From NCBI GenBank assembly GCA_029263415.1, contig JAJCXN010000009.1, positions 186,001-250,000 of the forward strand: DNA of 64,000 nucleotides, in the 5' to 3' direction. Shown one piece after another: positions 10,541-16,068 of this stretch (its first letter is position 1; each line of letters starts with the position of its first letter). This stretch comes from Acidobacteriota bacterium (GTDB lineage Bacteria; Acidobacteriota; Thermoanaerobaculia; Multivoradales; Multivoraceae). Position numbers and translations under genes: made by a program. Under the pieces are notes generated by a model. It worked only from the letters and a program-made list of their open reading frames with translations. It was not told the origin of the DNA and searched no databases.

Positions 10541-12193
10541 CTAGGGGGGTAAAGGCGCTTGGAATCTGGCGATCACCACGGTGCAGTCATCAACGGGTCG
10601 CTGCCCACAGGCGAAGGTTGCGATGTCGTCCAATAGGGATTCACCGAAGGCATTAATCTCAAGCGCGCGGTGACGTTGCGCGGACTCGCTAAGACGCTCT
10701 GGACCGTACTCACTGCTGTCCGGGTCTTCGGCCTCGGTCAGTCCATCGGTGTAAGCAACCAGCGCATCCCCCGACCGTAGTGTCTCGCGCTCCACAGTGT
10801 ACTGCGAGCCCCGAACTAGACCTAGTGGTCGACCAGCAAGGTCGAGCTTGGTGCAGCCGCCCGACGCTTTGACCAAGAGCGGCGGGTTGTGCCCAGCGTT
10901 GGTGTACTCGAACTGACCCGTTTGCGTGTCGATGACGGCAATGAAGGCGGTTGCGTACTTCTCTGGTGGGCTGCGCTCGTAGAGTCGTCGCGAGACGCTC
11001 TCAAAGATCTCTTTCGTAGATCTGTTCTCTTCGATTGGACCAACCGCGAGGGCTTCGATTGACGCTGTCAGCATCGCTGCCGGGACCCCTTTGCCCGAGA
11101 CGTCAACGACGAGTAGCAGGCAGCGTAGCCCGTCGAGCTGGCTAGTGATCTGGAAGAAGTCACCGGAAACTCCGCGGGACGGAGTGTTGCGAGCGAACAG
11201 CTCAAGGTTCTCGAACTGAGGCAGGGTCTGAGGTAGCAGCGACTCCTGGATCCGTCGCGCAATCTGCAGCTCCTGCTCCAACCGCTGGCGGGCGATAGCT
11301 GCGTGTACCAGCCTGAGGTTGCGCATCTTCAAGGCGGCAACCGAGGCGATCGACGCAAGAAGTTCGAGATCCTCTTCAGTGAACTCGCGAACTGACGCAG
11401 CGCTGCTCGCTACCACCATGCCTAAGCAGCCATGTTCATTGAGCAGCGGCGCGGCGGCCATGGATTGCGGACCGGAGAGAATGAGGCTCTCTGACTGAGA
11501 GAAGCGCTCGTCATTCGCGGCATCTCGAATCAGAGCGGCCATGCCTCGATTGCAGACTTCGTCGATTAGGCTGCGTGAGTAGAGTGGTGGACGGCTGACA
11601 GCGTCATCGGTCGAGCGATGGGCCGCCTGCTGGTACGAGCCATCTGATTCTTGGAAGAAGACGGCGACGTGGTGAGCTGAGAGTAACTCGATCACTTTGC
11701 TCAACAGAATGTCGGTGAGCTGCTCGGACGACAGCGTGGCACCAATCAGCTGATAGACGGCGTTGAGGCGGTGCAGTTTGTGCGCGTAGTCACGCAGACT
11801 TTCAGAGTCAACATCGCCATCCTGGGTGTCCAGATCAACATTTCGCAGGAACTCTGTGGCGGGCCTGAGCACGGTAGCCTGCAGGTCAGCGGTGCTCAAG
11901 TGCGAGGCAACGAAGGCAAGGTCGATACGCGATCCCGAAACGCGGATCGCGTCACCTTCGAAGACTGCAATCGGACCAGCGATGAGCTCGCCGTTAACCT
12001 CGGTTCCGTTGCGCGAGTCGAGGTCTTCAACGTAGGTCTCTCCCTCGCGCTTGAACAAGCGAGCGTGGTGCCGCGATAGGAACGGGTCTGGAATCAACAG
12101 GTCCGAAGTGGACGCTCGACCGATTATCATCGAGTCGGTGTCAAAGACGCGTTCGAAAGACGGCCCGTCGGCTGGTTCGATAAGGAGCTTCAC
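10541..12193 (-). CDS. FHA-GAF-SpoIIE (PP2C-type) serine/threonine phosphatase
   Basis: A 550-residue cytoplasmic signalling phosphatase of the RsbU/SpoIIE type. The N-terminal FHA domain (about residues 1-95) keeps its phosphothreonine-binding residues: GR at 25-26, SRHHA at 40-44 and DSRNGTEVNG at 59-68. A GAF domain follows at about 140-300, then a short coiled linker (LEQELQIARRIQESLLPQ). The PPM/SpoIIE phosphatase domain comes last, with SRGVSGDFFQI, VVDVSGKGVPAAM and GDALVAYTDGLTEA carrying metal-binding aspartates. Such proteins usually act on anti-anti-sigma factors or in partner switching. No STAS or anti-sigma gene is adjacent. The FHA domain suggests input from a Ser/Thr kinase such as the one at 28075, but that link is speculative. 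Confidence 0.92.
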   Translation of the reverse strand: MKLLIEPADGPSFERVFDTDSMIIGRASTSDLLIPDPFLSRHHARLFKREGETYVEDLDSRNGTEVNGELIAGPIAVFEGDAIRVSGSRIDLAFVASHLSTADLQATVLRPATEFLRNVDLDTQDGDVDSESLRDYAHKLHRLNAVYQLIGATLSSEQLTDILLSKVIELLSAHHVAVFFQESDGSYQQAAHRSTDDAVSRPPLYSRSLIDEVCNRGMAALIRDAANDERFSQSESLILSGPQSMAAAPLLNEHGCLGMVVASSAASVREFTEEDLELLASIASVAALKMRNLRLVHAAIARQRLEQELQIARRIQESLLPQTLPQFENLELFARNTPSRGVSGDFFQITSQLDGLRCLLLVVDVSGKGVPAAMLTASIEALAVGPIEENRSTKEIFESVSRRLYERSPPEKYATAFIAVIDTQTGQFEYTNAGHNPPLLVKASGGCTKLDLAGRPLGLVRGSQYTVERETLRSGDALVAYTDGLTEAEDPDSSEYGPERLSESAQRHRALEINAFGESLLDDIATFACGQRPVDDCTVVIARFQAPLPP

Positions 12194-12221: not shown

Positions 12222-14030
12222 ATGAGAGTCAGTATATCCAGCGCCGCGTGGCGTGACCGTTTGCGTCTGGGTGTGGCGGTAATCCTGTTGCTAGGACTCG
12301 GTACCCTGGGCGTGTTACGCGCCTACGAACTAGCGAAGTCGCGCACGGTGCCACGCACTGCGATCGGTGAGAGCCGGTGGTTCCACTATGCCACGCAGTC
12401 GCGGGCTGCTGCGGTACTGAGAACTCTTCCACCGGCGCCCTGGGAGCAACTACAAAGCCCCGAAGCCTTCGGCGACTCTGAGCAAGCCTGGTTCCTTGGA
12501 GTCTTGCGCTACGCCTGCCCAGCGTCGGAGGTTCAGCTCGACGGGGGGGATAGCGTGCACGACGACGTGACCTTCAGTCTAATGCCGCCCTGTGTGGCCC
12601 AGTTTCCTCAGTACCTTGAGGCATCAGACACCCAGCAGGAGCGCGGATTGGCCCTAGGCCTAAGAGTGACGGGCTGGGCGCTAGCGTTGCTCTTGTTCGG
12701 ACTGGTGGGGCGAGCAGTATCGGGTGGTGGGGGCCAGCACCGCACACTGAGTGAGCTTTCCACCCAAACCGCACTTGAAGTTGCGGTGGGCTGGGCTTGT
12801 GGTGGTTTGCTCGGTGTCGTGTGCTTTGTCGCAGGGGTGTCTCCCATGTTTGGATTCGCCGCGCTCTCGATCGCCAGCGGTGGGGTCCTCTTCGCACGGC
12901 ATCGGAAAGGACCCGCAGTCCGGGCGTCAGCTGGCTACCGCCGCTTGGCACAAGCATCCATTGTCGAGACTCAACTCGCCGCCGCGATCGGTCTTGGCCT
13001 GGTCGGCTTGGCGCTTGCTAAGGCTTGGTTGAGCCCGATCTGGAGCTGGGATCATCATTTGATCTGGGGCTTTAAGGCTAGGCAGCTGACTGCCGGAGCG
13101 AAGCATTTTCTGCAGCAGTCAGGCTATGAGGCGTCAGCGCCTGACTATCCTCTCTGGTTGCCCATCGCCTCAGGGATAGGAACACTCGGGCGAGTGCCAA
13201 CTTCGCTGGACTTTCATCTCCAGTGGTCAACAGCAGTAGTGCTCAGCACGGTTTTGGTGTGGGGGTTACTCGAGGCGCGCCGGCCAGTAGAACGGTGGTT
13301 GACCCTGGGCTTGATCGCTGCAAGCCCGGTGTTCTGGGACATGGAAGGTCTTGGGCTGGCCGAGGTTCCGCTACTGGTTCTCTCTCTGTCGGCTCTTCTG
13401 AGCGCTTGCCGAAAGAGTAGGCGAGGGCTCGTCACCATCCTCTGTTTGATGGTCATGGTCAACCTCAAGAATGAAGGGCTGGTTCTGGCGGTCGCCCTGA
13501 TCCCGTGTGCCTGGTTGCTGTCGAGGTCGGGCGGTAGCGGATCGCTGGTGCGACTGTGGCCCGTCTCAACATTGGTGGCAGTGCTCGCCTCTCGTTGGCT
13601 GGGTGGGCTCGCCACAGCCCCTGGGACGCCGTTCTTGGGGGGGCAGCCGATTGCTCGGGCGGTAGAGCGAGTTCGCGATCCGGTAGCCGTCCTCGAACCC
13701 GCCTGGAGGCAGGTAGTGGACGGTTCATGGCTTGGGCTGTGGGTGGTACTGCCAGCGATCGCGGTTCTTTTGATTCGATCTCTCGTCCGCGCCCGCTCGC
13801 GTGGCCACTTACTCGGTCGCGCTCTTGGGCAACCGACGCGGGCGAGTGCGGGCTTCGCGCTCTGGGGTGCTGTAGTTGCGGTGATCGCGGTGTATCTCGC
13901 TGTGTACTTCGCGACGTACCTAGATCCCGAGGCACACATTGTGTCGTCGTGGCACCGCATCCTCGGCCCGTTGTTGGTGTGGTCGCTGATTGCATTCAAC
14001 TGGGTGAATCCGTCGGGTGGTGCCCGCTGA
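12222..14030 (+). CDS. Polytopic membrane protein, possible GT-C-type glycosyltransferase
   Basis: A 602-residue integral membrane protein with about ten or more hydrophobic segments. An N-terminal helix (about residues 14-34) is followed by a soluble stretch of about 110 residues and then a long membrane region. After the third hydrophobic block it reads SPIWSWDHHLIWGFKARQLT and then SAPDYPLWLPIASG. Aromatic/acidic W-D and W-x-x-K-A patterns followed by Y-P-L are common in GT-C dolichyl- or undecaprenyl-phosphate-sugar glycosyltransferases. No family could be confirmed from sequence alone. AGGA lies seven bases before the ATG. It is divergent from the phosphatase gene with only 28 bp between start codons, and the small peptide gene follows by 127 bp. 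Confidence 0.6.
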   Translation: MRVSISSAAWRDRLRLGVAVILLLGLGTLGVLRAYELAKSRTVPRTAIGESRWFHYATQSRAAAVLRTLPPAPWEQLQSPEAFGDSEQAWFLGVLRYACPASEVQLDGGDSVHDDVTFSLMPPCVAQFPQYLEASDTQQERGLALGLRVTGWALALLLFGLVGRAVSGGGGQHRTLSELSTQTALEVAVGWACGGLLGVVCFVAGVSPMFGFAALSIASGGVLFARHRKGPAVRASAGYRRLAQASIVETQLAAAIGLGLVGLALAKAWLSPIWSWDHHLIWGFKARQLTAGAKHFLQQSGYEASAPDYPLWLPIASGIGTLGRVPTSLDFHLQWSTAVVLSTVLVWGLLEARRPVERWLTLGLIAASPVFWDMEGLGLAEVPLLVLSLSALLSACRKSRRGLVTILCLMVMVNLKNEGLVLAVALIPCAWLLSRSGGSGSLVRLWPVSTLVAVLASRWLGGLATAPGTPFLGGQPIARAVERVRDPVAVLEPAWRQVVDGSWLGLWVVLPAIAVLLIRSLVRARSRGHLLGRALGQPTRASAGFALWGAVVAVIAVYLAVYFATYLDPEAHIVSSWHRILGPLLVWSLIAFNWVNPSGGAR

Positions 14031-14053
14031 CCAGCGGGCCTGAATACCTCGGC

Positions 14054-14083
14054 TTGCCCGCTCAGAACGACCGCTGGTACACT
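14054..14083 (+). promoter_or_regulatory. Candidate sigma-70-type promoter for the small peptide gene
   Basis: TTGCCC (14054-14059) and TACACT (14078-14083) are separated by 18 bases and lie about 75 bases before the peptide's ATG. Each hexamer matches four of six consensus positions, so this is plausible but not strong. Confidence 0.4.
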
Positions 14084-14093
14084 TTAAGGGGAA

Positions 14094-14108
14094 CCGCCGT
14101 TTGGGCGG
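14094..14108 (+). other. Hairpin in the 5' leader of the small peptide gene
   Basis: CCGCC (14094-14098) pairs with GGCGG (14104-14108) around a five-base loop, just after the expected transcription start. It could stabilise the leader. No T tract follows. Confidence 0.4.
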
Positions 14109-14157
14109 GGACCTCTGATTTGATTTGATTCTAATTGTCCTCGCAGGAGAGCCCCAG

Positions 14158-14376
14158 ATGCCTGACTCCAAGATTCGAACGGCTGCGATGCCCACTCATA
14201 GTGCGCAGGACCGCGCCGCGGAGACGACGACAGCTCAAGGAGCGTCAAGACGTCCTTACGTGGCGCCCCGGATTGTCTCGCGGGAGCCGCTCGAGGCGGC
14301 TGCCAACATCTGTAACCCCGCCTTCGGCGGTAAGGGTGATATCAGCATCTGCTTCGGTGGCACGCTGAACTCATAA
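14158..14376 (+). CDS. Small two-cysteine peptide, possible modified-peptide precursor
   Basis: A 72-residue peptide that begins at the ATG at 14158 with AGGAG at 14145-14149. An in-frame upstream ATG at 14125 lacks a site. The first 30 residues are polar and variable-looking. A more ordered part follows, RRPYVAPRIVSREPLEAAAN, and then a short tail with cysteines at 52 and 65 and glycine pairs (FGGKG, FGGTL). A Y-x-x-P motif followed by a leucine/glutamate helix and a short Cys/Gly tail resembles leader-core layouts of ribosomally made modified peptides. It also resembles unnamed short peptides I remember from Acidobacteriota and Deltaproteobacteria. No maturation enzyme or exporter is adjacent, so function is open. 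It has its own candidate promoter. Confidence 0.6.
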   Translation: MPDSKIRTAAMPTHSAQDRAAETTTAQGASRRPYVAPRIVSREPLEAAANICNPAFGGKGDISICFGGTLNS

Positions 14377-14393
14377 GGTCTGCCACATCCGGG

Positions 14394-14438
14394 TTTCGGG
14401 CTATTGGCTCTCGGGCTATTGGCTCTCGGGCGATTGGG
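14394..14438. repeat. Three tandem 15-bp repeats
   Basis: Three near-identical copies of a 15-bp unit (TCTCGGGCTATTGGC and variants) fill the gap between the small peptide gene and the convergent sigma-54 regulator gene. They do not code for a recognised protein. Confidence 0.8.
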
Positions 14439-14457
14439 GCGGGCTAGAGCCTCTCGA

Positions 14458-16068
14458 TCAGCGAAGACCGTATCGCTTTAGTTTGCGATAAAGAGTCGTC
14501 CGTCCAATTCCGAGTTCTCGGCAGACCTTGGACAGGTTGCCGCCGAGTTGATCGAGCGCAGCAACGATCGCGTCTCGCTCGACATCTTCGAGAGGCCGGA
14601 TTGGATCGGACGCTAGCAGGCGCGACTCAACATCGTCTGGGTGGCGCGTGGCATTGCCAGCGGCTAGGCTCGGGTGGTTCGCCTCGTCCGGTGCTGGCTC
14701 TAAAGCGATCGTAGGGCGATCTAGCGTTTGGCCTTCGACCGTCTGTTGGTCGCTGAGGGCTTCTCTTGTTGTGCCTGCAGCTACGGGTGAGAGTGTCTGG
14801 GCGGCGTTCTCTGTTCCCGCTGCCGAAATAGCTTGGAGCAGCCGTGGCGGCAGATGATCTCGTTCAATGACACCGCCGTCGCTCGCTACCGTCCCGCGCT
14901 GCACGGCATTCTGCAGTTCGCGGACATTGCCAGGCCACGTGTAACGTTGGAGAACTTCTAGCGCTGCTGCACCGATCGATCCTGGAGTTCTCTGCTCACG
15001 GCGGGCGAACTCCCGTTGAAAGAACTTCACAAGTTCAAGAATGTCTCCGGCACGTCGCCTCAGTGGTGGCACCTCCAACTCGAAGACGGCGATCCGAAAG
15101 TAGAGGTCTGCACGGAAGTGCCCTTCGTTGACCTTTTGACCGAGGTCGCGATGGGTGGCTGCAATCAGTCGGAATTCGGAGGTGACCTCCTTATCGCCAC
15201 CGACGCGCACGAAGCGCTGTTCTTGCAGCACACGCAGTAGCTTTGCCTGCGCTGCCGGCGCTAGTTCAGCCACCTCGTCTAAGAAGAGCGTGCCGCGGTG
15301 GGCCTGTTCGAAGCGGCCGGCCCGGCGGGTCGTTGCTCCGGTGAAAGCCCCTTTCTCGTGCCCGAACAACTCGGACTCTTGGAGAGTCTCGGGGATTGCA
15401 GCGCAGTTGACCGGGACGAACGGCCCTGCGCGTCGATGACTCTGCTGATGGAGAGCTTGCGCCACGAGCTCCTTGCCAGTGCCGCTCTCGCCTTGAATTA
15501 GGACCGTGATGTCGCTATTGGAAAGGCGGTCCATCTGGCGGTACAGCGATCGCATGGGTTCGGAGTTACCTACGATGCCAGAGAAGCCGCTCCCAGAGAC
15601 GTCCCTTTCAAGCTGGGCCAGCTTGAGGGTCATGCGGTATGCGTCGATCGCGTGCTGAAGTCGGTTGGCTAGATCCGGGCGATGAATGGGCTTGGGGAGG
15701 TAGTCGTAGGCACCCAGCTTCATCACCTGCACGATGGACTCGACGTTGGTGTCGGCAGTCAAGATCAGGACCGGTAGATCTGGGTGGCGGTCGCGAATCT
15801 GCTCCAGGGTACGGAGGCCACTGAGGCCCGGCATGTTGAGGTCGAGACAGATCGCGTCGGGCAAGAACCGGCCAAGTCCGGCGAGCGCCGTTTGGCCGTC
15901 TTGGAAGGTGTGGACCTGATAGCCCTCGGTGAGCAGCCAACTCTTGACCAGATGACAGAGCGCACGATCGTCGTCGACCACCAAGACTGAGCGCTGCGGC
16001 TCCTCATGTCCGGCGGGTGCAGGTGCGACGTTTGGATCTTGATCGTTGCGGGTCAAAGTGGTCTTCAT
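14458..16068 (-). CDS. Sigma-54-dependent response regulator (NtrC family), orphan
   Basis: A 536-residue transcription activator. The receiver domain (about residues 27-140) has the acidic pocket VVDDD and the phospho-acceptor D76 in AICLDLNMPG. The AAA+ domain (about 165-400) carries Walker A GESGTGKE, the sigma-54 contact loop GAFTGA, and LFLDEV. The Fis-type helix-turn-helix closes the protein (NLSKVCRELGIGRTTLYRKLKRYGL). Between the AAA+ and HTH parts lies an unusually long, low-complexity linker of about 80 residues. No histidine kinase gene is adjacent, so the partner is unknown. The family activates promoters of the -24/-12 type. I did not find a convincing one nearby. Confidence 0.95.
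   Translation of the reverse strand: MKTTLTRNDQDPNVAPAPAGHEEPQRSVLVVDDDRALCHLVKSWLLTEGYQVHTFQDGQTALAGLGRFLPDAICLDLNMPGLSGLRTLEQIRDRHPDLPVLILTADTNVESIVQVMKLGAYDYLPKPIHRPDLANRLQHAIDAYRMTLKLAQLERDVSGSGFSGIVGNSEPMRSLYRQMDRLSNSDITVLIQGESGTGKELVAQALHQQSHRRAGPFVPVNCAAIPETLQESELFGHEKGAFTGATTRRAGRFEQAHRGTLFLDEVAELAPAAQAKLLRVLQEQRFVRVGGDKEVTSEFRLIAATHRDLGQKVNEGHFRADLYFRIAVFELEVPPLRRRAGDILELVKFFQREFARREQRTPGSIGAAALEVLQRYTWPGNVRELQNAVQRGTVASDGGVIERDHLPPRLLQAISAAGTENAAQTLSPVAAGTTREALSDQQTVEGQTLDRPTIALEPAPDEANHPSLAAGNATRHPDDVESRLLASDPIRPLEDVERDAIVAALDQLGGNLSKVCRELGIGRTTLYRKLKRYGLR

Follow-up and report, generated by a model that had tools for sequence, protein, structure and literature searches.

Radical SAM genes occur together with genes for a PqqD-like protein (ScmD) and an HprK-like protein (ScmC) in the SynChlorMet cassette (ScmA-F). 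Reports on lasso peptides place a YxxPxL motif at positions -17 to -12 of the leaders (PMC10368454) and describe HPr-kinase homologues that phosphorylate the terminal Ser of paeninodin-type lassos; BsfK is described there as phosphorylating Ser3 of its precursor, so that such a kinase and a terminal Ser need not pair. A survey of RREs gives W/Y/LxxP/L/I recognition sequences (PMC12710340), and a 2026 paper presents, according to its authors, the first experimentally characterised RiPP modifications from Acidobacteriota (PMC13083261).

The window analysed here is a stretch of 64,000 nucleotides from an Acidobacteriota genome of the class Thermoanaerobaculia (GCA_029263415.1, contig JAJCXN010000009.1, positions 186,001 to 250,000, forward strand). 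It carries a small orphan gene whose product is probably a radical-SAM RiPP precursor matured in trans. This reading is based on the linkage of the peptide family to radical SAM genes in relatives together with a maturase operon in the window's own genome, on the conservation of the family and the co-occurrence of peptide and radical SAM over 148 genomes, on a sister genus (g2) without either, and on PqqD-precursor fusions, the match of PqqD to TbiB1 and the retained HprK motifs. An orphan small ORF thereby becomes a testable gene-enzyme pair whose members lie on different contigs and would be missed by gene-cluster mining.

The peptide gene and its family

The precursor gene occupies 14158..14376 (+) and encodes 72 residues plus the stop, as the preliminary description had read it; it is recovered by the family profile in its own genome at E=1.2e-20 and fits the family alignment. 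The ribosome site described earlier is likewise present as a Shine-Dalgarno-like AGGAG at 14145..14149 (+), 8 nt 5' of the ATG, a spacing that favours the start at 14158 over a second Met at 14188, and the YVAPRIV and LEAAAN segments, the Gly/Cys tail and the other peptide features hold as described. No family in Pfam or NCBIfam covers the peptide. Conservation in related genomes, on which the earlier proposal hinged, was found in G002 (2.4e-20) and G003 (6.6e-20), in the equivalent syntenic slot. As for selection, the three pairwise comparisons between the peptide genes of the window, G003 and G002 give dN/dS values of 0.30, 0.31 and 0.41, which support selection on the window's own frame, at dS values (1.6-2.0) that limit the sharpness of the measure. 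Elsewhere in the family dN/dS is 0.17 for G035/G048, the only pair with unsaturated dS (0.23), and 0.07-0.16 in three pairs with dS of 1.2-2.2; for a fifth pair it was uncomputable, dS being saturated.

The peptide had also been presented as independently transcribed, from a promoter of its own and with a leader hairpin, and this remains unproved, since neither element withstood examination. A consensus scan of 13950-14500 reported no sigma-70-like promoter; a weak promoter-like TTGCCC-N18-TACACT at 14054..14083 (+) scores 8/12 by eye, falls below the scan threshold and is not supported, and the DNA upstream of the gene has no recognisable conservation in G002 or G003. The hairpin is of ordinary stability compared with shuffles (z -0.20). 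Just 3' of the gene, a short tandem repeat of CGGGCTATTGGCTCT units was noted by eye at 14397-14439.

Downstream lies a convergent response regulator/sigma-54 activator (14458..16068, -), confirming the neighbour named earlier; it is a syntenic neighbour, and membership in the same pathway is not implied. The 602-aa protein encoded upstream (12222..14030, +) had been called a GT-C-like membrane protein, an assignment that no Pfam family backs, and beyond it lies an FHA-GAF-SpoIIE gene (10541..12193, -) that is syntenic in G002 and G003. In both relatives the peptide sits between the FHA-GAF-SpoIIE gene and the sigma-54 regulator; the membrane gene has a counterpart in G003's version of this slot and none was found in G002, which keeps the run LepA-HemN-Ddl-SpoIIE-peptide-sigma54-MoxR-DUF58 (LepA, HemN and Ddl being putative names). 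The orphan position of the peptide is kept in three genera.

A single-sequence search of 98 relatives gave matches at E<=0.1 in 44, comprising clear relatives and many weak ones, some of the latter with stops or in long frames, and the family profile was built from the 25 members showing the leader motif; a single-sequence scan of genome contigs gave one relative (L034). At E<=0.001 the profile has matches at 40 places within the class, spread over at least 32 of 148 genomes; at E<=1e-5 it matches at least 56 of 396 genomes of the phylum, 47 of them lying outside the class, and one region each was read for 20 of these 47. Together, the 40 places within the class and 21 outside it constitute a set of 61 peptides, some identical, from which seven rows without the family pattern had been dropped outside the class (two from L180 and one each from L185, L187, L188, L195 and L197).

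In this set and in the alignment of the 25 members a small number of residues stand out. The segment YVAPRIV (Y34-V40, 14257..14277, +) is the proposed leader recognition motif (YxxPxI), as suggested by the alignment and by the resemblance of PqqD to the lasso RREs TbiB1 and TfuB1. Ala49 (14302..14304, +), 15 residues after Tyr34, would occupy the -2 place if numbered like lasso leaders, and Ala is found 15 residues after the first residue of the motif in 59/61 peptides. The putative core spans residues 51-72 (I51-S72, 14308..14373, +), its cleavage site being a guess by lasso-leader analogy. Exactly two cysteines follow the leader motif in all 61 peptides, here Cys52 (14311..14313, +; invariant in 25/25 aligned) and Cys65 (14350..14352, +), and a lysine lies between them in 57, here Lys59 (14332..14334, +). 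The proposed phosphorylation site, Ser72 (14371..14373, +), is C-terminal, as is Ser in 60/61 peptides (G126 ends in Ala), a count somewhat selected by a profile built on Ser-ending members; for comparison, 11 of 167 neighbouring ORFs (>=150 aa; simple calls, not curated genes) end in Ser. The residues before the terminal Ser vary (ISS, LNS, GFS, IQS, PSS, PTS), and the cores differ between families (PPAK...GPISS vs GGK...GFS).

Proposed maturation genes in relatives and in the window's genome

Read from the sequence alone, the preliminary description had suggested a precursor of the RiPP type, and the neighbourhoods of its relatives support this: beside them are radical SAM/SPASM genes and, in many cases, genes for PqqD, HPr-kinase-like proteins and peptidases. 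Of 20 class loci, 17 have a radical SAM/SPASM gene, always from the one family, no more than a few kb from the peptide, a count in which the L049 radical SAM was taken from the 148-genome search and the L054 peptide from a separate locus reading; of the three loci without one, two are those of G002 and G003, which belong to the window's family, and the third (L039) holds an orphan copy in G043. Gene clustering of the same 20 loci gives HprK-like genes in 13, C25 peptidase genes in 14, PqqD in 8 and S26-like genes in 4, simple ORF calls missing some genes (L054 gains PqqD and S26 on rereading). Pfam identifies the radical SAM (PF04055 and PF13186), PqqD (PF05402) and C25 (PF01364) proteins; the HprK-like and S26-like proteins fall below Pfam and NCBIfam cut-offs and are named by sub-threshold NCBIfam matches. 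Of the 20 loci read outside the class, 15 have a radical SAM gene near the peptide, 12 a C25 gene and 7 an HprK gene close by. The radical SAM enzyme would crosslink or otherwise rebuild the C52...K59...C65 core, and by analogy with radical SAM/SPASM RiPPs the two cysteines could carry thioethers.

Several loci show further arrangements. The orphan precursor at L039:8684-8851 (+) belongs to a genome, G043, that carries its cluster on another contig, and a second orphan precursor was seen in L123 around 9443 (+), in G128. A Wzy_C (O-antigen-ligase-like) gene adjoins maturase genes in seven loci (L082:9284-11227 (-), L040, L041, L046, L049, L083 and L084). Outside the class, L183, L190, L196 and L197 show a second form of the system, with a precursor of the type 'EARAxxCxKA...C..GPIQS' accompanied by PqqD, radical SAM and C25, HprK not being adjacent.

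The gene has no maturation enzyme beside it. Of the two options offered earlier, a stand-alone peptide or one with its enzymes elsewhere, the second is supported by one matching maturase operon on another contig of the same genome. This genome holds one peptide of the family (profile search, E<=1) and one family radical SAM (1.2e-156, the only match at E<=1e-15), on contig C28. The C28 operon (L082) comprises, on one strand, genes for a Wzy/O-antigen-ligase plus TPR protein, an S26-like peptidase, HprK (own-genome match 2.5e-90), PqqD and the radical SAM enzyme, and it adjoins a sugar transferase gene; G002 and G003 carry the same maturase operon. In the sister genus g2, neither the peptide nor the family radical SAM was found among the 20 genomes listed, HprK was absent from the one genome examined, and C25 from 3/3 examined.

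A tree built from 30 radical SAM enzymes places those of the window's genome (G000), G002 and G003 in a clade of 24 with 100/100 support, within which branching is mostly unresolved. By a manual count, 19 of the 24 lie no more than about 4 kb from a peptide; the remaining two, besides the three named, are G142 and G125. Across the 148 genomes, 28 hold both peptide and radical SAM, 4 the peptide only, 5 the radical SAM only and 111 neither (Fisher p=6e-21, a value that overstates independence because the genomes are related). The radical SAM cut-off of 1e-70 was our choice, and outside the window's family adjacency itself yields the co-occurrence. G052 and G060 were counted as peptide only though divergent radical SAM genes adjoin their fusion gene, in G112, also peptide only, the contig ends within the cluster, and G128 has the peptide and no radical SAM at the cut-off. 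G119, G079 and G142 have the radical SAM and no peptide, the first two near 1e-73 and the third with no peptide seen by eye in its 5.8-kb contig; G028 and G040, also in this category, sit at contig ends. For the window's family the pairing is founded on uniqueness and kinship, since peptide and enzymes are unlinked there.

Recognition domain, kinase and peptidases

The best solved match of the PqqD profile is TbiB1 (4.2e-15), followed by TfuB1 (7.6e-7), both lasso B1 proteins. In G052 and G060 a PqqD domain and the precursor form one continuous ORF, the precursor part in G052 being …PPRILWQETVEQVAATCAFFPAQNPLCSQVPFS; these fusion ORFs, at L133:8585-9007 and L132:7887-8324 (both -), adjoin HprK-like and divergent radical SAM genes. 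In a model of the G052 fusion (12 sequences, mean pLDDT 82.7, pTM 0.72), residues 112-117 of the leader segment form a strand, and among solved structures leader-bound TbiB1 chains come closest, two of them at E<=0.001. In the proposed order of events, the YVAPRIV segment would first join the PqqD sheet as an additional strand, bringing the precursor to the radical SAM enzyme. For structural studies, the fusions supply recognition domain and substrate in a single chain.

The HprK-like protein of the window's genome was modelled with a mean pLDDT of 84.1. Of the best 50 matches in a fold search with this model, 49 are PEPCKs (E values starting at 6e-7) or HPr kinases (starting at 9e-4), the exception being a respiratory complex at rank 34, and overall agreement is weak (query-based TM about 0.2-0.5, rmsd mostly 10-13); judged from the model, the family assignment is clear and the overall superposition is not. 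The P-loop and acidic motif are kept, with invariant S, G, G, K and D positions, and the acidic motif reads LSD[D/E] in 11/11, Glu replacing the second Asp in L051. By analogy with the action of PadeK on paeninodin, the kinase may phosphorylate the terminal Ser72, a proposal to which we give slightly less than even weight. Against this proposal, no HprK lies close by in eight radical SAM-containing loci outside the class, among them L194, which a contig end truncates, and the peptides of these loci still end in Ser. HprK homologues were found in 7/7 such genomes examined (best 2e-39 to 7e-33; the search also took in three genomes with adjacent HprK), about 7-12 kb from the peptide in four (G202, G256, G382, G438), and these homologues may serve other pathways.

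Leader removal would come last, an S26-like and/or a C25 peptidase cutting near residues 49-51 and freeing a product of about 22 residues. In L082 the S26-like protein, whose Pfam match is below cut-off, has Cys at the expected nucleophile-Ser position and His downstream. Such Cys-for-Ser proteins (motif GxCMxP or NCMAP) were seen at L082:8809-9405 (-), L041:4043-4540 (-) and L050:11463-11867 (-), and the S26-like protein of L051 keeps Ser.

Another possible role for the peptide, in modified or unmodified form, is as a partner of C25 peptidases, whether as propeptide, inhibitor, anchor or activator, with C25 as the effector, an explanation that is compatible with the preferred one and that we regard as rather unlikely. 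In 11 of 20 class loci the C25 gene lies immediately 5' of the peptide gene and on the same strand, with 4-nt stop-start overlaps in L049 and L052; counting any position, C25 occurs in 14 of the 20, and outside the class 12 of the 20 loci read have it. It is lacking in the three g2 genomes examined. Tandem modules of C25 and precursor occur in three copies in G032, two in G024 and two in G043 (L036:2046-13208; L035:6321-12052; L037:7143-12431). However, the four C25 genes of the window's genome are linked neither to the peptide nor to the maturase, and their products are 24-32% identical to peptide-linked C25s; moreover, the position of C25 relative to the peptide varies, the gene lying downstream in L047 and in several loci outside the class. 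Among the C25 tails compared (L037:2385-12066, L038:3814-8580; L035, L036, L042, L046, L049, L052, L053), three proteins linked to GFS-ending peptides have a two-Cys, Gly-rich C-terminal tail, and Glu is the last residue of the remaining nine that were examined; from these sequences, tail type may follow peptide type.

Beyond the window, a broader proposal is put forward tentatively, at less than even probability: the family could represent a RiPP class that is new to the literature and common across Acidobacteriota, with a Cys-Lys-Cys core crosslinked by a radical SAM enzyme and a terminal Ser phosphorylated by an HPr-type kinase, working with or processed by gingipain-like C25 peptidases, acting in trans in some lineages, the window's among them, and with recognition domain and precursor fused in others. 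Such a class would combine radical SAM tailoring with phosphorylation by an HPr-type kinase and, in many members of the phylum, connect both with C25 peptidases. In the open-licence literature searched, we found no report of a radical SAM enzyme and an HPr-type kinase acting on one precursor, and nothing relevant on C25/gingipain together with radical SAM.

Alternative readings and comparison with known systems

Could the peptide instead be consumed into a small redox cofactor, like PqqA and MftA? A PqqD-type protein is present, the linked radical SAM gives sub-cut-off matches to the NirJ, mycofactocin and PqqE models, and PqqE is its closest solved structure. The cores of PqqA and MftA use Tyr, however, and the window's core has none; the multiple peptide copies in single loci (three in G032, two each in G024 and G043), the divergence of cores between PPAK...GPISS and GGK...GFS, and a kinase with a conserved terminal Ser are not expected of a cofactor precursor either, making this explanation improbable. 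Membership in the PQQ or mycofactocin systems is not favoured, the models falling below cut-off except for one PqqD: the radical SAM proteins of L040 and L050 are far below PqqE/MftC model cut-offs, and the PqqD of L050 passes TIGR03859 (48.8 vs 46) while that of L040 does not (37.4).

Still less probable is that the orphan gene of the window's family is a relic or a recruited, unmodified small protein. The separation of gene and enzymes would fit, as would a tail, GGTLNS, that departs from the common GPISS, but the same slot is kept in three genera with the motif residues, both cysteines, the lysine and the terminal Ser, and the maturase operon is kept in the same three genomes. A lasso-peptide precursor is highly improbable and was rejected, for despite the YxxPxI leader at lasso spacing, a PqqD closest to lasso B1 proteins, and the HprK and terminal Ser also described for paeninodin-type lassos, the B2 peptidase (PF13471) has 0 matches in the window's genome, core positions 7-9 (counted from I51 at the guessed cleavage site) are G, G and K with no Asp/Glu, and a radical SAM is linked instead. 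PF13471 matches were found in 6/6 other genomes searched, one of them below cut-off. A PF13471 match in G035 (L040 around 1936-2262, -) lies about 2.6 kb from the peptide, in a locus that also has the radical SAM set.

Among described systems, the class III lanthipeptide with a GMC oxidase shares the phylum, and one of its clusters comes from a Thermoanaerobaculia genome; its enzymes differ from those considered here (PMC13083261). The paeninodin-type lassos (PadeA/PadeK, ThcoK, SyanK, BsfK) share the YxxPx(L/I) leader, the PqqD-type B1/RRE, the HprK-like kinase and the terminal Ser (PMC8498205, PMC9266682, PMC10368454), whereas the present system has no B2 in the window's genome, is linked to a radical SAM and has a two-Cys core without the lasso acid. 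With the SynChlorMet cassette it has in common the radical SAM, PqqD-like and HprK-like genes, yet it has one radical SAM gene in most loci and adds C25 and S26-like genes; this assignment was rejected, ScmC reaching at most 25.8 bits against a cut-off of 125 and ScmE/F at most 79.7 against 400 (the Scm, PqqE/PqqD and MftC model comparisons used L040 and L050 proteins rather than those of the window's genome). Finally, the radical SAM/SPASM RiPPs (sactipeptides, PQQ, mycofactocin) share the SPASM-matching radical SAM and the PqqD-type protein; in contrast to them, the NCBIfam radical SAM models all score below cut-off here (among the best 25 of 75 and of 74 matches), and the present system adds HprK and C25.
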